From: Bacteroidia bacterium
GTDB taxonomy: Bacteria; Bacteroidota; Bacteroidia; NS11-12g; UBA955
Reading direction: 5' to 3'
Assembly: GCA_023653095.1 (NCBI GenBank)
Contig: JAMNXP010000001.1
Coordinates: 388,853 to 452,852 of the forward strand
Length of the DNA stretch: 64,000 nucleotides
Part shown: one piece after another, positions 51,872 to 64,000 of the stretch
How positions within the stretch are numbered: position 1 is the first letter of the stretch
Layout: every line of letters begins with the position of its first letter
Translations under genes and position numbers: made by a program
Notes under the pieces: model-generated
Told to the model about the DNA's origin: nothing
Database searches by the model: none
Seen by the model: only the letters and a program-made list of their open reading frames with translations

Positions 51872-53164
51872 ATGATGAGAAAAATTACAATTCAATCAAT
51901 CATTCGCAACAGTATTATGGCTGCAGGTTTCCTGTCCATGTCAGTTGCGGGTGCCCAGTTTGCGGGAAACTGGAAGCTTGCAGCAAAGGCAGGAGCTTTT
52001 GCTGTAGGACCTGCTAAAGGCGATTACAGCTGGTGGGGTGTTCCTGCGGAAGAAGTTACAGGTGTTCGCGCTTGTCAATTTGATGATGTATTCAACTTTA
52101 ATGCTGATGGTTCATTTAAAAATGAACTAGGTACACAAACCTACCTAGAAGGTTGGCAAGGTGGTAACGGTTGCGGAACCCCAGTTGCTCCTCACGATGG
52201 TTCTACTACCGGTAAATGGATGTACGATGAAACTGCAAAAACCTTAACTATCATTGGAAAAGGTTGCTACATGGGGCTTCCAAAACCATAAAACGGTGGC
52301 GAATTAACCTCACCTGCAAATGCAAAAGACACCATCGTTTATGAAGTTGATGCAATGACTGCCAACTCTATGACATTGGTGATTTCTATTGGCGGTGGAT
52401 ACTGGAAATATGATTTCGTGAAAGAAATGCCAGCTCTAAACCCAGAAGGTAACTGGACATTTGCTCCAAAAGCTGGTTGCTTTAAAGTAGGTCCATCAAA
52501 AGGCGATTACAGCTGGTGGGGACTACCTGCTGGTGATTTAACTGTTCGTGCGTGTCAATTGGATGACCGTTTTGTATTCAATGCAGACGGGTCTTTCGAA
52601 AATATCATGGATGGAAGTACTTGGTTAGAAGGATGGCAAGGTTCTGACGGATGCGGAACTCCAGTTGCTCCTCACGATGGAAGCACCAAAGGTTCTTGGA
52701 TTGCCAATAAAGACAACGGTACTATTACCATCATTGGTAAAGGTTCTTACTTAGGTTTAGCGAAAGTTTATAACGGTGGTGAGTTGGCAAAGCCTGCTGA
52801 CGCAAAAGACACCATTGTATATCCCGCTATGATCAATGGAGATACCATGATTGTTGAAATTGCAATTTCTGGTGGTGCTCATTGGTATTATGAATTTGTA
52901 AGAAGTGCGGCTCCAATTGGAAGCGTTTCTACATTCAATACCGGTATGAAGGTTTATCCTAACCCAACCAATGGTATGATTTCTTTTGAATTTGAACGTG
53001 CGAGTACTGTTCAAAATGCGGTTATCTACAACACTGTAGGTATGCGTGTATTGGAAGTGGCTAATGCGAACAACGTTAATGTGGCATCATTGCCTGTTGG
53101 AACTTATTTTGTGAATGTAACTACAGCAAATGGCGTATTTACTTCACGTTTCATCAAGCAGTAA
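51872..53164 (+). pseudogene. T9SS-exported two-repeat protein interrupted by an in-frame TAA
   Basis: A signal peptide and first repeat (51872-52291) and a second repeat with a type A sorting domain (to 53164) are in the same reading frame, separated by TAA at 52289-52291. The two repeats of about 145 residues align closely (GDYSWWG, LEGWQG, CGTPVAPHDGST, IGKG, NGGEL, AKDTIVY). Where the second repeat has KVYNGGEL, the first has KP-stop-NGGEL, so one base change of a Tyr codon explains the stop. Without readthrough the product has no sorting domain. I recall this SWWG...EGWQG module beside glycoside hydrolases of the laminarinase type, which suits its position next to the glucan locus. Readthrough would give 430 residues. 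Confidence 0.85.
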
Positions 53165-53242: not shown

Positions 53243-56200
53243 TTAGCGAATATCTATCGTAATTTTCTCATCGGTGGCGAATCCTCCTTCAAATCCCACT
53301 GAAAAGGTAAATTCTCCACCCTCAAATTGACGTTTTAAGCCTGAACCAATAAAGGTTAAATCACTTTTACTGAAAGGCACTTCCACTAAAACCGATTCAT
53401 TCTTCTTAATCATTACCTTCTTAAACCCAACCAACTTCTTCACCGACGGAGTTACTGATGCAAAAAGATCACTCGAATAGATTTGCACCACCTCTTTTGC
53501 ATCGTAATTGCCCGAATTTCTCACTGTAACACGCGCTGCCATGAGTGAATCTCCATAACGAACAATTTCGAAGTTGCTGTATTCAAAGTTGGTATAACTC
53601 ATCCCCCATCCAAAGTCAAATAATGGCTGATAAGCGTTTTTTCCAAAATTGACATCGTTGTTTTCGGTGTGTTTACGGTCATAGTGCACCACATCCCCCG
53701 AAAAACGGGGATATGTAAAGGGTAGTTTTCCGCTGGGGACTTGCTTACCGTACAGAACATCGGCGATGGCACGTCCGCCTTCATCACCGGGCAAATACGC
53801 ATGAAGAACGGCATCGAAAAGTCCCACCAAAGAAGTAATGATTCGTGGGCGATTTAAAGTGAGAACAAGCACTGCTTTTCCACCGCGGTTCTTCCAATCT
53901 TGGATGAATTTCAAATCATTATCAGGAATATTTGTGGCGAGGTCATTGATGTTTCCGGTGACTTCCGTTCCGGGTTTTTCACCCAAGCAGTAAATTAAAA
54001 CCGCTGAACTCGATAAAACATTGTCGTATTTTCTCAATGCTTCTTCAATGGTGATCTTTCCCTTAGTTCTGTATCCATTGTTGATGCCCTGCCAACTGTG
54101 GGTCCATGCACCGTTCAATAAATCCATGTTCGAAGCGGCATCACCCATTATAATGGTCTTGACCATTCCTTCTTGCAATGGCAAAAGAGAGCCATCATTT
54201 TTCAAAAGTGTGATGCTTTCAACGGCGGTTTGATAACTGACTTCTGCAAACTCTGGAGTACCGATGGGTAAAACGGGAATTTGAGGAAATTCACCCACCA
54301 AACCGAGTTCATATTTCAATTTCAATATGCGATAAACGGCCTCATTGATCCTGGACATGGGAACACTCCCCTCTTCCACCAGCTCAATCAATAAATCATT
54401 GAACTGAAAATCGGATGGTGTCATACTCATGTCAATGCCTGCATTGATGGCCATTTTTACTGCTTCTTTTAGCGTTGGAGCCACTTTATGGGTTGTGTGA
54501 AGCTTGTATATATCTTCCCAGTCTGTTACCGCTACCCCTGTAAACTTCAATTCGTCGCGCAATAAACCCGTTAAGATATTTTTATTGATATGAACAGGTA
54601 TGCCGTTTAGTTCGCCGGAGTTGATCATGACGGTTTTTGCTCCCGATTGAATGGCGGTTTCAAAGGTTGGAAGGTAATATTCACGCAAAGTTCTTTCATC
54701 AATCCAAGCTGGTGTGCGGTCTTTACCACTTAGGGGATAGCTATAACCTAAGAAATGCTTCATGCAAGCAGCAACCGATGTATTGATACCGTTGTTTTGA
54801 TATCCTTCAATAGCACTTTTGGTCATGGCTTTTGCCAAATGCACATCTTCTCCGTAGGTTTCGAAGAAACGAGACCATAAAGGCTGTCTTCCAAGATCTA
54901 AAACTGGTGAAAAGTTCCAAGGGATACCCGAAGCTCTTACCTCTTGGGCGGTGATTTGAGCAGCTTTTCTGACCAATGCCGGATTCCAAGTGGCCGCTTG
55001 TCCTATTTGCTGCGGAAATAAGGTCGCCCCCATGGTGTAATTCGCTCCGTGGATAGCATCGATACCATACACCACATATACACCGTTATTACCAGAATTG
55101 AAAGAGGCTTTCTGAATATCATTGATAATTGAATGCCAGCGTTGAAGTGAAATGGTTCCTGAACCACACCCCACATTCAATACTGATCCTACCTTATATT
55201 TATTGAAAGCAGTTGCCAACTTCGAAGAATCCAAAACTTGAGGTTGTTGTAAGGCACAGATATCTCCTTTGGCAATGAGTCCCAAATCAATTTGGGTCAT
55301 TTGCCCCACCTTTTCGGTTAATGACATTTTGCTTATTTTAGACTTGATTTTTTGATCTAAAGTCAATCCTGATTCAGCACCGTATCTCAAACCAAGCAAT
55401 TTAAGTCCTTTTTGTACATCAATATGATTGTTGAAATGCTTCCAAAAAAGTCCAGTACGGTAGTTTTCCATCATCACCACAATAGGACCTTGATCTATGG
55501 CTAGATACCAAGGCTTAGACCAATTTTTATGTTCTGAGAATGCATCAATGAACCCATACTTTTTGAAATATTTGGATTTATTAATATACCAATTTGATAA
55601 GCATTTCACTGATAATTGAGGAGTGTAAGGAAAAGAGGAAAGGGCCGCCGTTGGTGATATCACCCCTTCGTCACGCGATGAATCTGGCGCATGTCCCGAG
55701 TAAAAATTCACTGAATAACTGGCTGTCAGTCCCCAAGAACTGTCACCGTATCCTTTGTATTTCAATGGATTGTTAACGCACCATTGATAATTATTCAGAG
55801 TTTGATGGATGTTTTCTTTACCAAAATCAGCGTAATTATCTTGCAATCCCATTGGATCTAAGGCTACAAATGAATAATGTGCCCAAAACAAGGGCCCTCC
55901 ATTTTGTAAATCACCCTGGTGTCTGAGCTGAAGCGGAAAATAAGCCTGTTTCTGCTTTGAAGAAATTTTGTTGATTCCTGCTACTGAACCATCTGACTGA
56001 GCCTGTGCCCAACCCTTATGATAAACAGTTGGTTTGATTGGGTGTGTAGGAGATGAAGCCGCCAAAATGTACATGATTAAACACTCATTATACCCTTTTA
56101 CCGCGAAATTCATGGCCCAACCGTGGCTTGGACTCCAATGCCAATAAAGAACGTCTTCTCCCTTTGTGTACCAATCAAACTCAATTTCTCTCCAGAGTTT

Positions 56201-56788
56201 GGTGATGCGCTTATTGATTTTTGTTATTCTAGAATTCTTGGGGATGCTTCCATTTTTCAATCCCTCAGAGAAAATCTGCTGAACCGAGAGAAATCCTTGC
56301 ATTAAAAAACTACTTTCCACCAAGTCTCCTCCGTCGTCTTTTGGACTGAAAGGCTTGACTTTTCCGGTGTTTCCATCGAGCCAATGCGGCCAGGCACCGT
56401 GGAAGCGATCGCATTTTTCAAGGAAGGACAAATTGCGTTCGTATCGGGCCAGCAATTGATCAAGAGTGATCCATCCTCTTTTATATCCTACCATAATGGC
56501 CATCACGCCAAAGCCTGAACCGCCTGTTGTGATGATGTGTTCGTCTTTATCTGGGTAATCACTATCGAGGTGAATTCGTTCACGGGCCAAACCTGAATTA
56601 GGCTCTGCCCCATCCCAAAAGTATTGGAAAGTTCGGTATTGAACGGTGTCAAAAATTCTTTTTTCGGACTCCGAAAAATCAGAATATGAAGTGTACTTTT
56701 GAATTGGAACATTTTGGGCATTTAGCTTAGAAAATGCACCACAAACGCTCAAAAACAGAATGATGATTGAATTGTACCTCATGCGCAA
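53243..56788 (-). CDS. GH144-GH3 fusion enzyme (predicted beta-1,2-glucan saccharifier)
   Basis: The 1181-residue exported protein (signal peptide ending in LNAQ) joins two glycosidases. Residues about 35-465 are GH144 (RTFQYFWDGAEPNSGLARER, HGAWPHWLDG, YWHWSPSHGWAMNF, ISPTAALSSFPYTP, AIDQGPIVVMMENYRTGLF), the family of endo-beta-1,2-glucanases. Residues about 475-1181 are GH3, with nucleophile D756 in GVAVTDWEDI, the catalytic GTEVTGN region, and a fibronectin-like C-terminus. The GH3 part is of the YGIDAIHGANY (exo-glucanase) type. No T9SS domain is present, so it is probably periplasmic. One chain could cut beta-1,2-glucan internally and release glucose. The fused order is directly seen; substrate is from family knowledge. 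Confidence 0.9.
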   Translation of the reverse strand: MRMRYNSIIILFLSVCGAFSKLNAQNVPIQKYTSYSDFSESEKRIFDTVQYRTFQYFWDGAEPNSGLARERIHLDSDYPDKDEHIITTGGSGFGVMAIMVGYKRGWITLDQLLARYERNLSFLEKCDRFHGAWPHWLDGNTGKVKPFSPKDDGGDLVESSFLMQGFLSVQQIFSEGLKNGSIPKNSRITKINKRITKLWREIEFDWYTKGEDVLYWHWSPSHGWAMNFAVKGYNECLIMYILAASSPTHPIKPTVYHKGWAQAQSDGSVAGINKISSKQKQAYFPLQLRHQGDLQNGGPLFWAHYSFVALDPMGLQDNYADFGKENIHQTLNNYQWCVNNPLKYKGYGDSSWGLTASYSVNFYSGHAPDSSRDEGVISPTAALSSFPYTPQLSVKCLSNWYINKSKYFKKYGFIDAFSEHKNWSKPWYLAIDQGPIVVMMENYRTGLFWKHFNNHIDVQKGLKLLGLRYGAESGLTLDQKIKSKISKMSLTEKVGQMTQIDLGLIAKGDICALQQPQVLDSSKLATAFNKYKVGSVLNVGCGSGTISLQRWHSIINDIQKASFNSGNNGVYVVYGIDAIHGANYTMGATLFPQQIGQAATWNPALVRKAAQITAQEVRASGIPWNFSPVLDLGRQPLWSRFFETYGEDVHLAKAMTKSAIEGYQNNGINTSVAACMKHFLGYSYPLSGKDRTPAWIDERTLREYYLPTFETAIQSGAKTVMINSGELNGIPVHINKNILTGLLRDELKFTGVAVTDWEDIYKLHTTHKVAPTLKEAVKMAINAGIDMSMTPSDFQFNDLLIELVEEGSVPMSRINEAVYRILKLKYELGLVGEFPQIPVLPIGTPEFAEVSYQTAVESITLLKNDGSLLPLQEGMVKTIIMGDAASNMDLLNGAWTHSWQGINNGYRTKGKITIEEALRKYDNVLSSSAVLIYCLGEKPGTEVTGNINDLATNIPDNDLKFIQDWKNRGGKAVLVLTLNRPRIITSLVGLFDAVLHAYLPGDEGGRAIADVLYGKQVPSGKLPFTYPRFSGDVVHYDRKHTENNDVNFGKNAYQPLFDFGWGMSYTNFEYSNFEIVRYGDSLMAARVTVRNSGNYDAKEVVQIYSSDLFASVTPSVKKLVGFKKVMIKKNESVLVEVPFSKSDLTFIGSGLKRQFEGGEFTFSVGFEGGFATDEKITIDIR

Positions 56789-56840
56789 GCAAGTTACTGT
56801 ATATTTTACAAAAAGTAAAAACCTAGGAATGTACTTTTTA

Positions 56841-56848
56841 CAAAACTA
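56841..56848 (-). promoter_or_regulatory. Possible -7 box of the GH144-GH3 fusion gene
   Basis: The minus strand reads TAGTTTTG, 52 nt before the ATG at 56788, inside the 64-bp divergent promoter region shared with the GH31 gene. That region also has ACAAAAAGTAAAA and GTACTTTTTAC, partly symmetrical. Confidence 0.35.
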
Positions 56849-56852
56849 CGTG

Positions 56853-59800
56853 ATGTTTAAGTTATTAAAGAAATTCAATTTAACACTATTGTTCCTTGTT
56901 CTTGGGACTTTGAGCATGAGCTCAAAAATGGTGAATGCTCAGAATCCGAATTTTCAAACGCTTGAAAAACGCATTTTTAAATCTAACGAAGGAGGCATTG
57001 ACTTACCCTACAGAATATATGTCCCCAGAGAAAAAAAAGAAAATCTACCCGTAGTTTTTTTCCTTCATGGACGAGGAGAATGCGGCACCGACAATGAGAA
57101 GCAATTGAACAACGGTGGGTATTGGTTGCTAGAGTATGCTGTGACGAAAGAACCGGCTATTTTGATTTATCCGCAATGCCCTGAAAACTCTTATTGGAGC
57201 AATGTAAAGCGTGAGGTAGATCCTAAAACAGGGAAGATTCACTTTGAATTTCAAGAAGGCGGAGCCCCCAGCGAAGCCATGAAAAGTCTGCAGGAATTGA
57301 TGCGCCAAGTTCTTAATGAGAAAAATGAGTTCAGCATTGATGGTAGACGTGTTTATTTGAGTGGCTTATCCATGGGTGGAATGGGAGCGCTGGAATTGGC
57401 AAAGCGCAATCCCACTATATTCGCAGCAGTGGCAGCCATTTGCGGCGGCGGAGAAATGGGAAATCCAGAACCGCTAAAAGGCACCAGATTTTGGTTGTTC
57501 CACGGACTGAAAGACGATGTAGTTGACCCAACGTTCAGTAAAAAAGTTGAGAGCGATTTAAAAGGTCTTGACGTTCGGTCGACATTCTATCCAGATGCTA
57601 ACCATAATGCTTGGGATGCTACCTTTCAAAATCCACAGGTATTGAAATGGATGTTTTCAACTCACAAAAATCAAAAGAGCAATTACCTGATCAATCAAAA
57701 ACTCACTGCAAAGGAATGGACTCTTGACACCCGAGATTATACCCTAAAAATCAAGACAGCCAAGGCAGGAACTTTGGCTTTTGAATATCAAAAAAACAAA
57801 ACAAGACACCATTCTTACGGGCTGGCCGAATCGTATGAGAAAACCATAAATGATGCACTCAGCAGTGATACATTTACCAAAATGACCGTCACTAAGGGAG
57901 AAAATGACTTGGTCACATATTCAAGTACATACAAACATTTAACGATTCTGATTCATGAAAACCCATTCACTTTTAAAATAATTGATGAGAGAAAACAATC
58001 GCCTTTCCCTATTTTAGAAGACCACACCAGCGACCCAGTGATTCAAAGTCCGGGAAAGTGGGTGAAAAATTTCAAGATGGCTAATCAGGAGATTTTTCTG
58101 GGTTTGGGAGAGAAAACCGGTGGATTAAATCGCGCGGGAAACTCGTTTACCCTCTGGAATTCAGATAATCCGGGTTACACAGGAAACACTGACCCCTTGT
58201 ATCAATCCATTGCCTTTTACTATGGGGCACACAACGGACACACCTACGGTATTTTGTTGGATCATTCGCAAAAGAGCAAGTTCAATTTCGGAGCGGCGCA
58301 AGATTTTACGAGTATAGAAGTGAACGATGACCATTTGGTGTTCTTTTTTATTCCGGGGGACAATTTGACTGAAATAGCCTCTAAATACCGACAGTTGACG
58401 GGTTGCACTCCCTTGCCTCCCAAGTGGAGCTTGGGCTACCATCAATCGAGATGGAGTTACCGATCTAAAGAACAAATTGAACACGTTGTAGAAGGTTTCA
58501 AAACACACAAATTACCCTTAGATGCCGTGCATTTTGATATTCATTACATGGATCAAAACAGGGCATTCACCTTTGACACGATTAGATATGGCAATCCTAA
58601 AATGTTGATACAATCGTTGCAAAAAAAGGGAATTCACCCGGTGTGCATCATTGATCCGGGCATTCAAGTGAACAGCGATTATTCGGTGCATGAATCTGGT
58701 TTGAAGAACAACGTTTTTGTGAAATACCCTTCTGGGAGACTCTACGAAGCCAGTGTTTGGCCAGGATTGTGCCATTTTCCTGATTTTTCGAACCCAACTA
58801 CACGCACTTGGTGGGGCGACCAAATGAAGTATTATACCAGCATGGGTCTGGATGGATTTTGGAACGACATGAACGAGCCCGCTGCTTGGGGAAAAGATGT
58901 TCCTGAGTACTTGGTTATGAATCGCGAAGGTTTGATTGGAAACATGGTTGACTGTAGGAACGCCTACGGAAGTTTGATGGCCATTTCTACCAGATTTGCG
59001 GCTGAACAGCAGCTTCAAAAGCGTGTTTTCAATCTAACTCGTGCAGGCATGACGGGTATTCAGCGCTATTCGGCTGTTTGGACGGGAGATAATGTAGCTT
59101 CAGACGAACACTTGATGTTGAGCATTAAACTTTTGACCTCTTTGAGTATTTCAGGGGTGGATTTTGTAGGCGCTGATATTGGTGGATTCATGGGGAACGC
59201 TTCTCCTCAATTGTTCACCCGTTGGATGACCGTCGGCGCATTTACTCCTTTTTTCAGAGGACATAAAATGTCTGATGAGGCCATGGCAGAACCTTGGCTT
59301 TACGGTGAAAAACACACAGATGTTATTAGGCATTACATGAATTTAAGATATAGACTGCTCCCCTATTTATACAGCAGTTTACGCGACAGCCTCACTCCCA
59401 TCATGCGACCCATGATCTTCGAAAATACCTGGTTCAATCAAGAAATGATTGGCGGACGTTTTGAGCATCAATACTATTTTGGGAAATCTTTCTTAGTGGT
59501 GCCCGTTGACAGTAAAACCGAAGTTACCGAAATTTTATTCCCCGAAATCAACACAAGCTGGTACAGCCTCGCCCACGATGAAATATACCATTCTGGTCAC
59601 TCAATTCTTGTGAAGGCACCGCTGCATCAATTACCCGTTTTTGTTAAAGAAGGTAGTGTAATTCCAGAAAATGCCGCTCGACAAATAGTCAATACCGAAT
59701 CCAATTCTGATACCATTAACATTCACATTTATGCTACCATCCATGAAGGAAATTCTTATTTCGGAAATCTATTCTTTGACGATGGCATCAGCAAGAACAG

Positions 59801-60110
59801 CAGCTTTTGTAATTACCAAGTAAGGAACGAAAAGTGTAAACTACAATTCATCAAATCAGGTTCTCGAGAATTTCCTCACAAGAGAGTACAATTGATTTTT
59901 CATGGATTCATGGATAAACAGGTAAAACTCAACGGCAAACTCTTGAAGTTCGAACCCGAATTTCAAACGCATTTCGGATTTGATGGGTTCATCTACCAAT
60001 CAGAAGTTTACACCAAGCTAGCGCAGCCCATGTTCAAACACACGGTAGTGGTAAAAGATTTAAGCGAAATTGCCTTAGAATTCGGGAGTGATAGTAGGTC
60101 TAAACGGTAA
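56853..60110 (+). CDS. Esterase-GH31 fusion (alpha-glucosidase family)
   Basis: From ATG 56853 (1085 residues, signal peptide ending in VNAQ) the protein has two enzymes. Residues about 30-275 are an alpha/beta hydrolase of the esterase/PHB-depolymerase-like type with GLSMGG (nucleophile S173) and DANHNAWD (H251). Residues about 290-1070 are GH31, with nucleophile D672 in GFWNDMNEPA and acid/base D746 in VWTGDN, plus the LPPKWSLGYHQSRWSY entry motif. GH31 enzymes release alpha-linked glucose or xylose from non-reducing ends. The esterase could remove ester groups from the same substrate. It is divergent from the GH144-GH3 gene, and its 3' end overlaps the next GH3 gene by 36 nt tail-to-tail. 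Confidence 0.88.
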   Translation: MFKLLKKFNLTLLFLVLGTLSMSSKMVNAQNPNFQTLEKRIFKSNEGGIDLPYRIYVPREKKENLPVVFFLHGRGECGTDNEKQLNNGGYWLLEYAVTKEPAILIYPQCPENSYWSNVKREVDPKTGKIHFEFQEGGAPSEAMKSLQELMRQVLNEKNEFSIDGRRVYLSGLSMGGMGALELAKRNPTIFAAVAAICGGGEMGNPEPLKGTRFWLFHGLKDDVVDPTFSKKVESDLKGLDVRSTFYPDANHNAWDATFQNPQVLKWMFSTHKNQKSNYLINQKLTAKEWTLDTRDYTLKIKTAKAGTLAFEYQKNKTRHHSYGLAESYEKTINDALSSDTFTKMTVTKGENDLVTYSSTYKHLTILIHENPFTFKIIDERKQSPFPILEDHTSDPVIQSPGKWVKNFKMANQEIFLGLGEKTGGLNRAGNSFTLWNSDNPGYTGNTDPLYQSIAFYYGAHNGHTYGILLDHSQKSKFNFGAAQDFTSIEVNDDHLVFFFIPGDNLTEIASKYRQLTGCTPLPPKWSLGYHQSRWSYRSKEQIEHVVEGFKTHKLPLDAVHFDIHYMDQNRAFTFDTIRYGNPKMLIQSLQKKGIHPVCIIDPGIQVNSDYSVHESGLKNNVFVKYPSGRLYEASVWPGLCHFPDFSNPTTRTWWGDQMKYYTSMGLDGFWNDMNEPAAWGKDVPEYLVMNREGLIGNMVDCRNAYGSLMAISTRFAAEQQLQKRVFNLTRAGMTGIQRYSAVWTGDNVASDEHLMLSIKLLTSLSISGVDFVGADIGGFMGNASPQLFTRWMTVGAFTPFFRGHKMSDEAMAEPWLYGEKHTDVIRHYMNLRYRLLPYLYSSLRDSLTPIMRPMIFENTWFNQEMIGGRFEHQYYFGKSFLVVPVDSKTEVTEILFPEINTSWYSLAHDEIYHSGHSILVKAPLHQLPVFVKEGSVIPENAARQIVNTESNSDTINIHIYATIHEGNSYFGNLFFDDGISKNSSFCNYQVRNEKCKLQFIKSGSREFPHKRVQLIFHGFMDKQVKLNGKLLKFEPEFQTHFGFDGFIYQSEVYTKLAQPMFKHTVVVKDLSEIALEFGSDSRSKR

Positions 60111-62399
60111 GCCTTGAATGTCCATCTCTAACGTTTGAGAAGTTTGTGAACTTCCACCAGCCGAGAATTTGAATTTACCTGGTTCGAAAAACCACTCACC
60201 CTTATCGTTGTAATATCCTAATTGATCACGAGAAACTTGGATTTGCACTTCTTGGGCTTCACCCGCTTTCAACCACACCTTTTCAAAACCCACCAATTGT
60301 TTAACCGGTCGGGTGAAGGTAGCTTCCACATCGCTCATGTAAAATTGTACCACTTCATATCCGTCGGTGGATGAAGTATTTTTTACAGTTACGGTCAATT
60401 TCACCCCAGTTGAACGATAAACATTCAAATTTGAATACTCAAAAGTGGAATAACTAAGTCCATATCCAAATGGAAACAAGGGCTGATTGGATACATCTAA
60501 GTACTTTGACGTGTATTTTTGGTTATTATCGAAAGGTCTCCCTGTAGTGCGCGAATTGTAGTATATTGGGATTTGCCCTTCGTTTCTGGGAAAGCTCATG
60601 GTGATTTTACCTGAAGGATTATTTTTACCATAAAGGGTATTCACAATGGCTTTTCCGCCTTGTGTACCTGGGAACCAGCACTCCAATACGGCAGCGCAAT
60701 AAGGCAATACATCGGTTAAAACTAAGGGACGACCATTCATCAATACTAAAACAATGGGTTTGCCTAATTTGTGTAGGCTTTTAATCATATCCACTTGATG
60801 TTCTGGCAAATGAATGTTAGACCTAGATGCTGCTTCGCCACTCATTCCGAAGGTCTCCCCCACAACCAACACAATTACATCTGACTTTTTAGAAACTGAA
60901 ATGGCGCCCTTCAACAAAACTTTTGCATCTTTCGGTGCTTCAATTTGTCCGTCGTGGGGATTCAACTTCGCGATTAAATCGGCATCTTCCAACAAATTAC
61001 AGCCTTCGGCATATTTGATGTTTGCTAGATTAATGGTTGCTCCGCTTGAATTCAAAGCATCTCCTGAAGTAAGCGCGTCCCAGATGCTAATGGATTTTTT
61101 CCAATCTCCGGCCCCGCTCCAATTTCCAATTAAGTCGCGTTTGCGCTTGATGTGAGGCCCCACAAAAGCTACTTTAGCCTCTGATTTCAAGGGAAGGATG
61201 TTGCCGTCGTTTTTGAGCAACACAAACGATTCTTCGGCAGCTTTAAGGGCTGCATCAAGATGCTCGGTTGACAACATTTTAGATTGTTTTGCTTCATTAA
61301 GTCCCCTGTAAGGATCAGAAAACAAACCCAATCTATATTTTGCAATCAGTATATTCTTACATGCTCGGTCAACGTATTGAACGAATTCAGGTATATCGTT
61401 GCAAATATTCTTAAGATGAAGTAAATACAGTTCGCCCACCATGTCCATCTCAGCGCCCGCCTTAATGGAGCGACCCGCAATCGTTTTTGGTGAACCCATT
61501 CCATGATTTTCCAGTTCGTTGATAGCAGTGTAATCAGTGACCACCATGCCGTCGAAACCCCATCTCTTGCGCAGAGTTCCTTGAATCAAATCTTCATTGC
61601 ACGTAGCAGGCATGCCGTTGATGTCGTTGAAAGAGGTCATCACCGTACCCACACCGGCATTGATTGCAGCTTCGTAAGGGGGTAAATAATCGTTGAACAT
61701 TTTGTAAGTACTCATATCTACGGTATTGTAATCTCTACCGGCTTCGGCGCCTCCGTAAAGGGCAAAGTGCTTAACACACGCCATAATTTTATCATTATTG
61801 GTGTAAAGCCCATTCAAACTATAGCCTTGATATCCCCAAACCATAGCTTTGGCAATGCTTGAACCCAACATAGGGTCTTCTCCAGCACCTTCCGAAACCC
61901 GTCCCCAACGAGGGTCACGAGCGATGTCAACCATGGGAGAAAACGTCCAATTCAAACCATCGGCAGATGCTTCAGCCGCAGCAACCGATGCTGATTTTTC
62001 TACCAATTTTAAGTTCCAAGTAGCTGATAGTCCCAAGGGAATAGGAAAAATAGTTCTATGACCGTGAATGACATCATATCCCAACAACAATGGAATTCCC
62101 AAACGGGTATTTTTGATGGCTTTTTCCTGAAGTTTTCTGACCGCGACTGGGGTGAAGGTATTAAACACACCTCCAACTTCACCGCGTTCAATTTTTGCTT
62201 CTACATCTTTGCTTAAAACTGGGCCGGTCACATCAAATCCCACCGAAGGTAGATTCAATTGTCCAATTTTCTCATCCAAGGTCATTTTCAACATTAGACT
62301 ATCAACAAATTGATTTGCTCTTGCATCAAAAGATTGTGCTTCGCCAACATTCACAAAAGACCATGCGGCAAACGCCAAAAACCCGTATTTGAAATTCAT
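60075..62399 (-). CDS. bglX: GH3 beta-glucosidase (BglX type)
   Basis: From ATG 62399 the protein is 774 residues with a signal peptide ending in GEAQ, so it is periplasmic. It has the full BglX layout: TIM-barrel with PLLLGYDVIHGHRTIFPIPL split over two motifs, nucleophile D289 in GMVVTDYTAI, alpha/beta sandwich with acid/base region GMSGEAASRSNI, and a fibronectin-like C-terminus. GH3 enzymes of this type remove glucose from beta-gluco-oligosaccharides. It follows a GH144 gene by 8 nt, so sophoro-oligosaccharides are the likely substrate (inference). A start at 62486 would run into the GH144 gene and is less likely. Confidence 0.92.
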   Translation of the reverse strand: MNFKYGFLAFAAWSFVNVGEAQSFDARANQFVDSLMLKMTLDEKIGQLNLPSVGFDVTGPVLSKDVEAKIERGEVGGVFNTFTPVAVRKLQEKAIKNTRLGIPLLLGYDVIHGHRTIFPIPLGLSATWNLKLVEKSASVAAAEASADGLNWTFSPMVDIARDPRWGRVSEGAGEDPMLGSSIAKAMVWGYQGYSLNGLYTNNDKIMACVKHFALYGGAEAGRDYNTVDMSTYKMFNDYLPPYEAAINAGVGTVMTSFNDINGMPATCNEDLIQGTLRKRWGFDGMVVTDYTAINELENHGMGSPKTIAGRSIKAGAEMDMVGELYLLHLKNICNDIPEFVQYVDRACKNILIAKYRLGLFSDPYRGLNEAKQSKMLSTEHLDAALKAAEESFVLLKNDGNILPLKSEAKVAFVGPHIKRKRDLIGNWSGAGDWKKSISIWDALTSGDALNSSGATINLANIKYAEGCNLLEDADLIAKLNPHDGQIEAPKDAKVLLKGAISVSKKSDVIVLVVGETFGMSGEAASRSNIHLPEHQVDMIKSLHKLGKPIVLVLMNGRPLVLTDVLPYCAAVLECWFPGTQGGKAIVNTLYGKNNPSGKITMSFPRNEGQIPIYYNSRTTGRPFDNNQKYTSKYLDVSNQPLFPFGYGLSYSTFEYSNLNVYRSTGVKLTVTVKNTSSTDGYEVVQFYMSDVEATFTRPVKQLVGFEKVWLKAGEAQEVQIQVSRDQLGYYNDKGEWFFEPGKFKFSAGGSSQTSQTLEMDIQGLPFRPTITPEF

Positions 62400-62407
62400 T
62401 TTTATAA

Positions 62408-64000
62408 TTAATTTAAGTAAGGGGCCTGAAAGCCCAATTTTTTCATCCCAGATACAACCTCTGGAACCGCCGTAAAGTTTTTCCAAAGGAGTCCAGATCT
62501 GTAATTTTCCATCATAACAATGATTGGACCTTGATCAATGGCCAAGAAACTATTTGCCGCCCAGCAATCGCCCACAGAGAATGCATCTACAAATCCATAC
62601 TCCTTCCAAATGAGATCACCCAGTTGGTAATAAAAGAACTCTAACGCTTTAGTAGATTCATCAGGGGTATATGGAAACGAACTCAGTGCTGCAGTTGGCG
62701 TTATCACTCCACGGTCATTCGTGGGTGAACTCGCCGTATAAGAATTGGGAATATCGCTAGCGGTTAGTCCCCAGCAAGAATCACTATATCCCGCTTGATT
62801 CTTAGGATTATTCTTGCAATAAAGATGATTGATTTTGGAATGATTCACATTCTGCTCCCAATAATTGGCGTATTGATCTGATAGTCCGTTTGGATCTATC
62901 CCCAAAAACGAATAATGTGCGAAGAAGAGAGGCCCTCCATAATCTTCTCCAAGGGGTAACTTCACCCCATAGAATGAGCGACCGTTTTTCATGCCGCCAT
63001 TTCTTGCCCATCCATTGTGATAAACATTGGCAGCCACTGGATGTGTGGGCGAACTTGCCGCTAAAACGTGGGTAATCAAGCATTCATTCCAACCCCTGAT
63101 TTGCATGTTCATGACAAATCCTTTGTTGGGACTCCAATGCCAATATAAATTGGACTCACCGTTTTTGGTGAACCAATACCAATCCACCCGATGCCAAATA
63201 GAGTCAATGGTTTCTCTGAGTTTGGTTTCTTCGGGGGACGATTGATTGAAATAATTACGTGCGGTCAACAAACCTTGAATCAGATAGGAAGTTTCTACCA
63301 AGTCTGCACCGTCATCGTTTGTTGAAAAAGCGATGGTTTTTCCTGTTGAACCGCTCAACCAATGAGGATAAGCCCCGTGAAATTGATCTGCTTTTGTCCA
63401 AAGGAAATCAGACATTTTATTCAGGTGAGATACTACCTGATTTCTAGTTAAATAGTTGCGATCAACGGCAGCAACCAATGCCATAATTCCAAAACCGGTA
63501 CCACCTGAGGTAACTAGATCACCAGAGGTATTCCTTTCGCGAGCCATTCCGCTTACAGGGTGTGCAAAATCCCAAAAGTAGCGAAGTGTTTTTCTTTGAA
63601 CTGAGTCTAACAAGTCTTCTTTTGAAATTCTAGAAAACTTAGGACTCTTATTATAAGTAGTTCTAATTTGGATGGTCAAGTGTTTATCTAAAGCAACTCC
63701 TGCCCTAGATTTAACGGTTACCGGAATAGGCAAGGTATATTTTGCAAAAAAACGCAAGGGCGACTTAGGTCTTAAGACCATGGTAGAATCGCCTTGAATG
63801 AAGGATACATTTTGTTCAACGCTGCTGACACCATTGAACATCAATTTGATGTTTTCTTTGGCAGAATTAGTGTCTAAAGGTTGTGAAAACGAGATTTTAA
63901 CTTCGGGATTAACGGAAGCATTTTTCTTTACCAAATAAATCGCTGAACCATCCCAAGTAACGCTTTGCATCTGGATGGGATATTTAGGTTCAGGTTGTTT
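62408..64000 (-). CDS. GH144 endo-beta-1,2-glucanase-like protein with Ig-like N-terminal domain (5' end outside window)
   Basis: The frame is open to the right edge. The last 10 codons before the first in-window ATG read KQPEPKYPIQ, a spacer-like sequence, so the true start and probably a lipoprotein signal lie beyond. An Ig-like domain (about 100 residues, VNPEVKISFSQPLD onwards) precedes the GH144 catalytic domain (RKTLRYFWDFAHPVSGMARER, HGAYPHWLSG, LYWHWSPNKGFVMNM, TPTAALSSFPYTP, AIDQGPIIVMMENYRSG). It is paralogous to the N-terminal half of the 53243-56788 fusion. It is transcribed ahead of the GH3 gene 8 nt away. The two together act like a split version of the fusion. Confidence 0.9.
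   Translation of the reverse strand, partial: KQPEPKYPIQMQSVTWDGSAIYLVKKNASVNPEVKISFSQPLDTNSAKENIKLMFNGVSSVEQNVSFIQGDSTMVLRPKSPLRFFAKYTLPIPVTVKSRAGVALDKHLTIQIRTTYNKSPKFSRISKEDLLDSVQRKTLRYFWDFAHPVSGMARERNTSGDLVTSGGTGFGIMALVAAVDRNYLTRNQVVSHLNKMSDFLWTKADQFHGAYPHWLSGSTGKTIAFSTNDDGADLVETSYLIQGLLTARNYFNQSSPEETKLRETIDSIWHRVDWYWFTKNGESNLYWHWSPNKGFVMNMQIRGWNECLITHVLAASSPTHPVAANVYHNGWARNGGMKNGRSFYGVKLPLGEDYGGPLFFAHYSFLGIDPNGLSDQYANYWEQNVNHSKINHLYCKNNPKNQAGYSDSCWGLTASDIPNSYTASSPTNDRGVITPTAALSSFPYTPDESTKALEFFYYQLGDLIWKEYGFVDAFSVGDCWAANSFLAIDQGPIIVMMENYRSGLLWKNFTAVPEVVSGMKKLGFQAPYLN

Follow-up and report, generated by a model that had tools for sequence, protein, structure and literature searches.

The gene at 53243–56788 on the reverse strand of the DNA analysed here encodes a complete GH144 domain and a complete GH3 domain in one natural chain. 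The DNA is a stretch of 64,000 nucleotides from a member of the Bacteroidia (GTDB NS11-12g; UBA955), positions 388,853 to 452,852 of contig JAMNXP010000001.1 in assembly GCA_023653095.1; this whole stretch is referred to as the window, and its genome, which is 74.8% complete, as G000. The same two glycoside hydrolase (GH) families are joined in the same order in one further genome of the genus, G002 (loci L004, L015 and L137; L015 is contig CAMDUE010000008.1). The lineages of the fused halves are called GH144a and GH3a, and the separate neighbouring genes GH144b and GH3b; other genomes and loci carry our G and L numbers. What would such a protein do, and how did two enzymes come to share one chain? 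The reading that we favour, with a confidence somewhat above even, is that of an exported two-headed glucan hydrolase that arose through gene capture. Its GH144 head would cut beta-1,2-glucan internally, by inversion. Its GH3 head would remove glucose from non-reducing ends, by retention, keeping a preference for beta-1,3 linkages while tolerating beta-1,2, and the separate GH3b would be the main sophorose hydrolase.

One chain with two catalytic domains

The reading frame is uninterrupted over 1181 codons from a TTG, from which residues are numbered here. An ATG at 56782, two codons inside the TTG frame, gives a gene at 53243–56782 and a protein of 1179 residues. By eye, the N terminus of this protein resembles a signal peptide (56714–56782, reverse strand), with no lipobox Cys seen. 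No type IX secretion system (T9SS) domain or tail was listed for the protein in domain scans. Because the start is signal-like without a lipobox and no T9SS domain is listed, the protein is probably exported, and we infer a periplasmic location.

The chain consists of a GH144 domain (residues 38–468, 55385–56677; Pfam PF10091 at 227–455, 4.5e-68), a short linker of about 10 residues placed by alignment (469–477, 55358–55384), a GH3 N-terminal barrel (478–824, 54317–55357; Pfam at 490–824, 3e-64), a GH3 C-terminal sandwich (859–1065, 53594–54214; 7.9e-31) and an Fn3-like domain (1099–1165, 53294–53494; 5.1e-13), all on the reverse strand. The predicted structure has a mean pLDDT (predicted local distance difference test) of 80 and a pTM (predicted template modelling score) of 0.66, with mean pLDDT values of 73–75 in the blocks around the linker. 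Its fold matches GH3 crystal structures in Foldseek; the 50 listed rows are all GH3, and the comparison is thus silent on the GH144 half. The initial annotation, made from the sequence alone, had proposed this natural fusion, with GH144 filling the N-terminal half and a complete GH3 with nucleophile D756 behind it. The single frame, the Pfam profiles, the alignments and the ortholog in G002 all uphold that description.

Residues 35–466 align with the crystallised endo-beta-1,2-glucanase CpSGL (5gzk/5gzh) at 537 bits. D151, D155 and E158 (56315–56338, reverse strand) correspond to CpSGL D135, D139 and E142, and E235 (56084–56086, reverse strand), the proposed general acid, corresponds to E211; these equivalences, like those to BoGH3B below, were counted by hand from the alignment. 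All four residues are identical in 49 of 49 aligned GH144 rows (47 of GH144a type, the window sequence again and GH144b, two rows being the window's own sequence). Residues of the E211 and E142 type are proposed as general acid and base in GH144, and changing CpSGL D135, D139 or E142 leads to a drastic loss of activity (PMC12102758). On the basis of the binding mode, the same source argues that exolytic release of glucose is not possible for the enzymes under study there. Since the gene closes a SusC/SusD locus that has a second GH144 and the sophorose-type GH3b, the GH144 half is very likely a beta-1,2-glucanase. The exo-acting GH144 BDI_3064 (PDB 5Z06) belongs to the same family and matches at 363 bits, but the match begins only at its residue 276, behind a large N-terminal region; an N-terminal region of unknown function is described for exo-acting GH144 (PMC8861115). 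The fusion has no such region, its GH144 beginning soon after the signal-like segment, and endo action is favoured for that reason.

Could sequencing or assembly error have joined two adjacent genes? In G003 the GH144b and GH3b frames are parted by a single in-frame stop, and an error there could mimic a fusion. However, the chain was found separately in G002, again in one frame (query residues 2–1181 at 82%, 1–1181 at 81%), so that a misassembly in a single genome does not account for it. By codon comparison the two separately assembled genes are 81.5% identical over 1178 codons, with a similar junction and the same neighbours. In addition, no free GH3a lies beside the free GH144a in L096, L098, L100 and L108. 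We consider an artefact highly improbable. The ratio of nonsynonymous to synonymous change (dN/dS, Nei-Gojobori) between the two genes amounts to 0.058 for the whole chain, 0.077 for the GH144 part and 0.081 for the GH3 C part; no ratio is given for the GH3 N and Fn3 parts, where synonymous change has reached saturation.

Further fusions were sought in four overlapping sets: 57 relatives, 108 genomes of the order searched with PF10091 (25 with a match), 395 genomes of the class and 395 of the phylum. In the class and phylum scans at most two candidates were scored per genome, and a weak or uncommon fusion might have escaped them. Among the matches listed for the relatives, order, class and phylum there is no third fusion beside those of G000 and G002. 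Long frames with GH144 and GH3 matches in G003, G005 and G017 (1107, 1380 and 938) resolved into separate frames with in-frame stops between them. Nine long-frame GH144 candidates (G139, G347, G451, G171, G412, G771, G806, G654 and G726) are separate genes, with 0 of 9 fused, and neither query, GH144 or GH3, matched the long frames with weak PF10091 in G076 and G027. These last two frames, of 2925 codons (L135, G076) and 1291 codons (L136, G027), occur in the same family and are possibly cyclic beta-1,2-glucan synthases. Among the 15 of 276 plasmid records listed by tblastn, the two inspected (H4, Parabacteroides; H5, Rhodobacter) have GH144 and GH3 as adjacent, separately annotated genes. A search of the openly licensed PubMed Central literature gave no paper on a GH144-GH3 enzyme; the initial annotation likewise knew of no characterised enzyme of this kind.

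Of the 14 genomes of the genus, two have the fusion (G000, G002), five a free GH144a and no GH3a (G001, G004, G007, G011 and, in pieces, G009), four a free GH3a and no GH144a (G005, G010, G012 and, broken, G008) and three neither (G003, G006, G013). The absences are soft because four of the 14 genomes are less than 80% complete (G000, G003, G004, G009).

Active site and lineage of the GH3 half

The C-terminal half aligns with BoGH3B (5jp0) at 515 bits in two pieces. The nucleophile D756 and the first +1 Trp, W757, both in the barrel, correspond to BoGH3B D314 and W315, and the second +1 Trp, W899, and the acid/base E942, both in the sandwich, to W458 and E534. The two Trp form the +1 site in BoGH3B (PMC4967831), and both are present in 51 of 51 aligned GH3a rows.

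Arg572 of the GH3 enzyme Lin1840 has been tied to sophorose and laminaribiose binding (PMC4757417). The corresponding column is a gap in the fusion and in 51 of 51 GH3a rows, and holds Arg in 4 of 4 GH3b-type rows of the joint alignment; the column of Lin1840 Tyr583 holds Asn in the fusion. The neighbouring GH3b (60075–62399 from its ATG, reverse strand; frame 60075–62486) was placed by domain scan and alignment in the JMB19063/BT_3567/Lin1840 clade, with JMB19063 as its best match (776 bits), followed among others by a sophorose-bound B. thetaiotaomicron GH3 (734) and Lin1840 (557). Its R650 and Y658 (numbered from 62486) align with JMB19063 R587 and F598, the equivalents of Lin1840 Arg572 and Tyr583 thus being present. 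Because GH3b has the Arg where the fused GH3 has a gap, the locus already owns a sophorose-type GH3 distinct from the fused one. As judged by sequence, the fused GH3 is of another lineage than GH3b.

A maximum-likelihood GH3 tree with 55 rows unites the two fused GH3s in a clade of their own (100/100), which groups with the three free GH3s of the genus (100/98). Two of these three (G005, G010) adjoin GH81, a family of endo-beta-1,3-glucanases. The GH144 tree (quick method, 47 rows) likewise has the fused pair as one clade (100), next to the GH144a of G001 (85) and within the GH144a of the genus (99). Other recurrent neighbours of free GH3a are GH16 and a family matching solved GH158 structures (4.5e-88). 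In the best 80 of 319 relatives (42 free-GH3a loci and 38 others, namely GH144 or GH144/GH3b loci and L015), a GH81, GH16 or GH158 match is found in 32 of 42 free-GH3a loci vs 2 of 38 other loci, both with GH16; these counts come from phmmer at 1e-8 with one query per family, on loci that are mutually related and of unequal length. Several of the ten free-GH3a loci without a match are short contigs. A GH81 and one or more GH16 genes are found elsewhere in G000 and in G002, neither of which has a GH158 match. Among NCBIfam models the fused GH3 scores best with that of an exo-beta-1,3/1,6-glucosidase, far under the cut-off of this model (378 vs 1330 bits).

Two other features of the free-GH3a loci were seen. 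A lipoprotein-like family of 284 residues (L052 8054–8905), with no Pfam and no meaningful PDB match, stands beside free GH3a in 26 of the 42 loci. Additionally, the free GH3a of G008 (L159 14051–16461) is split over two frames, next to a GH81 that looks intact.

The initial annotation had also proposed that this one protein could convert beta-1,2-glucan to glucose. The GH144 side of that proposal is very likely right, with a CpSGL-like half in a polysaccharide utilization locus (PUL) that holds a second GH144. For the GH3 half, the Arg gap and a lineage tied to GH81, GH16 and GH158 make one-chain conversion a possible reading but not the best-supported one. It would imply a dedicated saccharifier, in which the GH3 head was retuned after fusion to sophoro-oligosaccharides. 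The position of the fusion in a beta-1,2-glucan-type PUL is consistent with this, as is a window free of matches to the GH81, GH16 and GH158 queries. Linked heads suggest a shared substrate, and some GH3 enzymes cut beta-1,2 among several linkages (PMC4967831). There are also 21 fusion-specific positions, including N903 just after W899, where 44 of 49 free GH3a rows have Asp and 4 have Glu; among these positions N903 looks closest to the +1 site, as judged from the sequence. Yet the Lin1840-type Arg is absent, 112 of 112 positions invariant in free GH3a rows (98% cut) are unchanged in the fusion, the PUL already has an Arg-bearing GH3b, and the GH3a lineage is tied to beta-1,3 systems. On balance we regard such retuning as unlikely, though far from negligible.

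Several observations weigh against a beta-1,3-preferring GH3 head. With the three queries no GH81, GH16 or GH158 match was found in the 64-kb window of the fusion or in L015, and G012, among the nearest free GH3s, has none of these families nearby. N903 may mark a changed aglycone site. Lin1840 does not distinguish sophorose from laminaribiose (PMC4757417), and the Arg loop is therefore not a strict beta-1,2 mark. The exo-beta-1,3-glucosidase BuGH3 has been linked to gentiobiose (PMC7553746). BoGH3B has been suggested to be highly specific for beta-1,4 glucans (PMC4967831), and since this nearest solved relative comes from a xyloglucan locus, the fused GH3 might possibly prefer beta-1,4. Given that Lin1840 is non-discriminating and that GH3s active on several linkages are known, a GH3 head with the beta-1,3 preference that we favour may well also cut sophoro-oligosaccharides.

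The surrounding locus and the origin of the fusion

The PUL begins outside the window. In L164 its order is an NrtR-type regulator, SusC, SusD, a LamG-domain protein, GH144b, GH3b, a divergent esterase-GH31 gene and the fusion, and SusC and SusD are co-directional with the GH genes (L164 3366–7606), as they are by eye in L165 and L096. In the window, domain scans place GH144b at 62408–64000 (reverse strand), with a Big_5 domain and a lipobox-like start; it continues past the window and has 597 residues in L164. The CE1-like esterase-GH31 fusion, identified by Pfam, occupies 56760–60110 (forward strand), with the GH144-GH3 fusion on one side and GH3b on the other. The L164 order recurs in G002, except that GH31 stands there without the esterase (L137 and L165; SusC, SusD and NrtR of L165 by eye). 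In G001 and G004 (L096, L098) a free GH144a occupies the position of the fusion, with the esterase alone in G001, and in G007 and G011 a free GH144a adjoins the esterase while GH144b and GH3b are on another contig. GH144 PULs are common in Bacteroidetes (PMC6499787), and loci with GH144 and a sophorose-type GH3 are already known from B. thetaiotaomicron (PMC8861115).

How might the fusion have arisen? In G012 (L110; names by eye) PckA-, AlaS- and RsmG-like genes, a glycosyltransferase (GT2) and NrtR are followed directly by GH3a. In G008 (L159) RsmG, the glycosyltransferase and NrtR are followed by the broken GH3a and by GH81 up to the contig end, and on the other side are AAA ATPase and XseA genes that also occur in the left part of the window. 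G000 and G002 have the same first block (RsmG and GT2, with PckA and AlaS where the contig reaches), then NrtR, the whole beta-1,2 PUL and GH144-GH3. Between G000 and G012 the NrtR proteins share 77% identity. As the simplest account, these gene orders suggest that the PUL landed between NrtR and GH3a and was then joined to it. A beta-1,3-glucan (laminarin-type) locus would have been in place first, with GH3a as its exo-glucosidase, and the beta-1,2-glucan PUL would have come to lie between the NrtR-type regulator of that locus and GH3a. The last gene of the PUL, GH144, would then have been joined in frame to GH3a, with the loss of the GH3a signal peptide and N-terminal stretch.

Other gene orders do not fit this route directly. 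In G001 NrtR follows GH144a and is not at the PUL head, and the PhoX/CCP genes of G010 lie on the opposite side of GH3a from those of G000; these differences call for one further rearrangement or more. A second model that was considered, derived from L096, has the fusion made by deletion of NrtR from a GH144a-NrtR-GH3a order, and the gene order of G001 fits that model better. Landing of the PUL is preferred because NrtR stands at the PUL head in L164, although neither route is proven.

The window holds two neighbouring enzyme fusions, GH144-GH3 and esterase-GH31. Esterase and GH31 are separate adjacent genes in G004 and G011 (L098, L108), and the GH31 of G002 is without an esterase. A frame of 238–290 codons that matches the esterase-GH31 query, by its size in the esterase part, stands between GH144 and GH3b. 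It was found in 7 of 9 class and phylum loci inspected (L129, L130, L132, L140, L141, L142 and L143), and its recurrence there hints at ester groups on the natural beta-1,2-glucan.

A domain of some 150 residues without a Pfam match recurs in proteins encoded beside the fusion and beside GH3b, in loci of beta-1,3 type and within GH81 proteins as one of their modules; it is a candidate beta-glucan-binding module. In the window, frames and domain scan show two copies in a T9SS protein at 51872–53164 (forward strand), which is split by an in-frame stop at 52289–52291; the G002 copy of this two-domain protein is one open frame of 434 codons. Further copies are at L137 14894–16195, L103 10356–11639, L106 10458–11741 and L099 4034–4897, in the GH81 proteins of L157, L158 and L161, and in L022, L033 and L055.

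Alternatively, both linkages could occur in the natural substrate, for example in a beta-1,3-glucan that has beta-1,2 segments or side branches, and the fusion could act on the two at once. Two linkage lineages in one chain would agree with such a substrate, as would the unnamed domain common to proteins beside the fusion and to GH81 proteins, and the GH81 and GH16 genes elsewhere in both fusion genomes. On the other hand, no such glucan is tied to the organism, and the rest of the PUL resembles a usual beta-1,2 gene set; we hold this explanation to be quite improbable. That an endo-beta-1,2 and an exo-beta-1,3 head serve a natural glucan with both linkages, the merged locus under one NrtR-type regulator being dedicated to that glucan, likewise seems improbable.

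Comparison with known enzymes

Enzymes of beta-1,2-glucan are often inferred from gene neighbourhood. Here such inference can mislead, because the GH3 joined to GH144 differs in lineage from the sophorose-type GH3 next door. The region would also offer a traceable example in which one locus landed next to another and the two were fused. The protein is a ready construct for asking whether tethering of endo and exo glucanases helps.

CpSGL (Chitinophaga pinensis GH144, PDB 5GZH/5GZK) has equivalents of D135, D139, E142, E211, F268 and Y330 kept in the fusion. Unlike the fusion, which adds a GH3 behind the GH144, it has one catalytic domain. BoGH3B (PDB 5JP0) is the best solved relative of the fused GH3, in which its catalytic residues and Trp pair are kept, but it is a stand-alone enzyme of a xyloglucan locus with 39% identity to the fused GH3 (Foldseek row). 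The sophorose-cleaving GH3s Lin1840 and BT_3567 belong to the same family as the fused GH3 and to the same clade as its neighbour GH3b. Their Arg loop is absent from the fused GH3, which they match more weakly (263–275 bits vs 515 for BoGH3B). The structures 5XXL–5XXO are those of BT_3567; the structure match list names a B. thetaiotaomicron GH3 with sophorose. Finally, BuGH3, from the 1,3GUL of B. uniformis, keeps company with GH16 and GH158, as do many free GH3a; it is a separate gene, and is likened to the fused GH3 by gene company.

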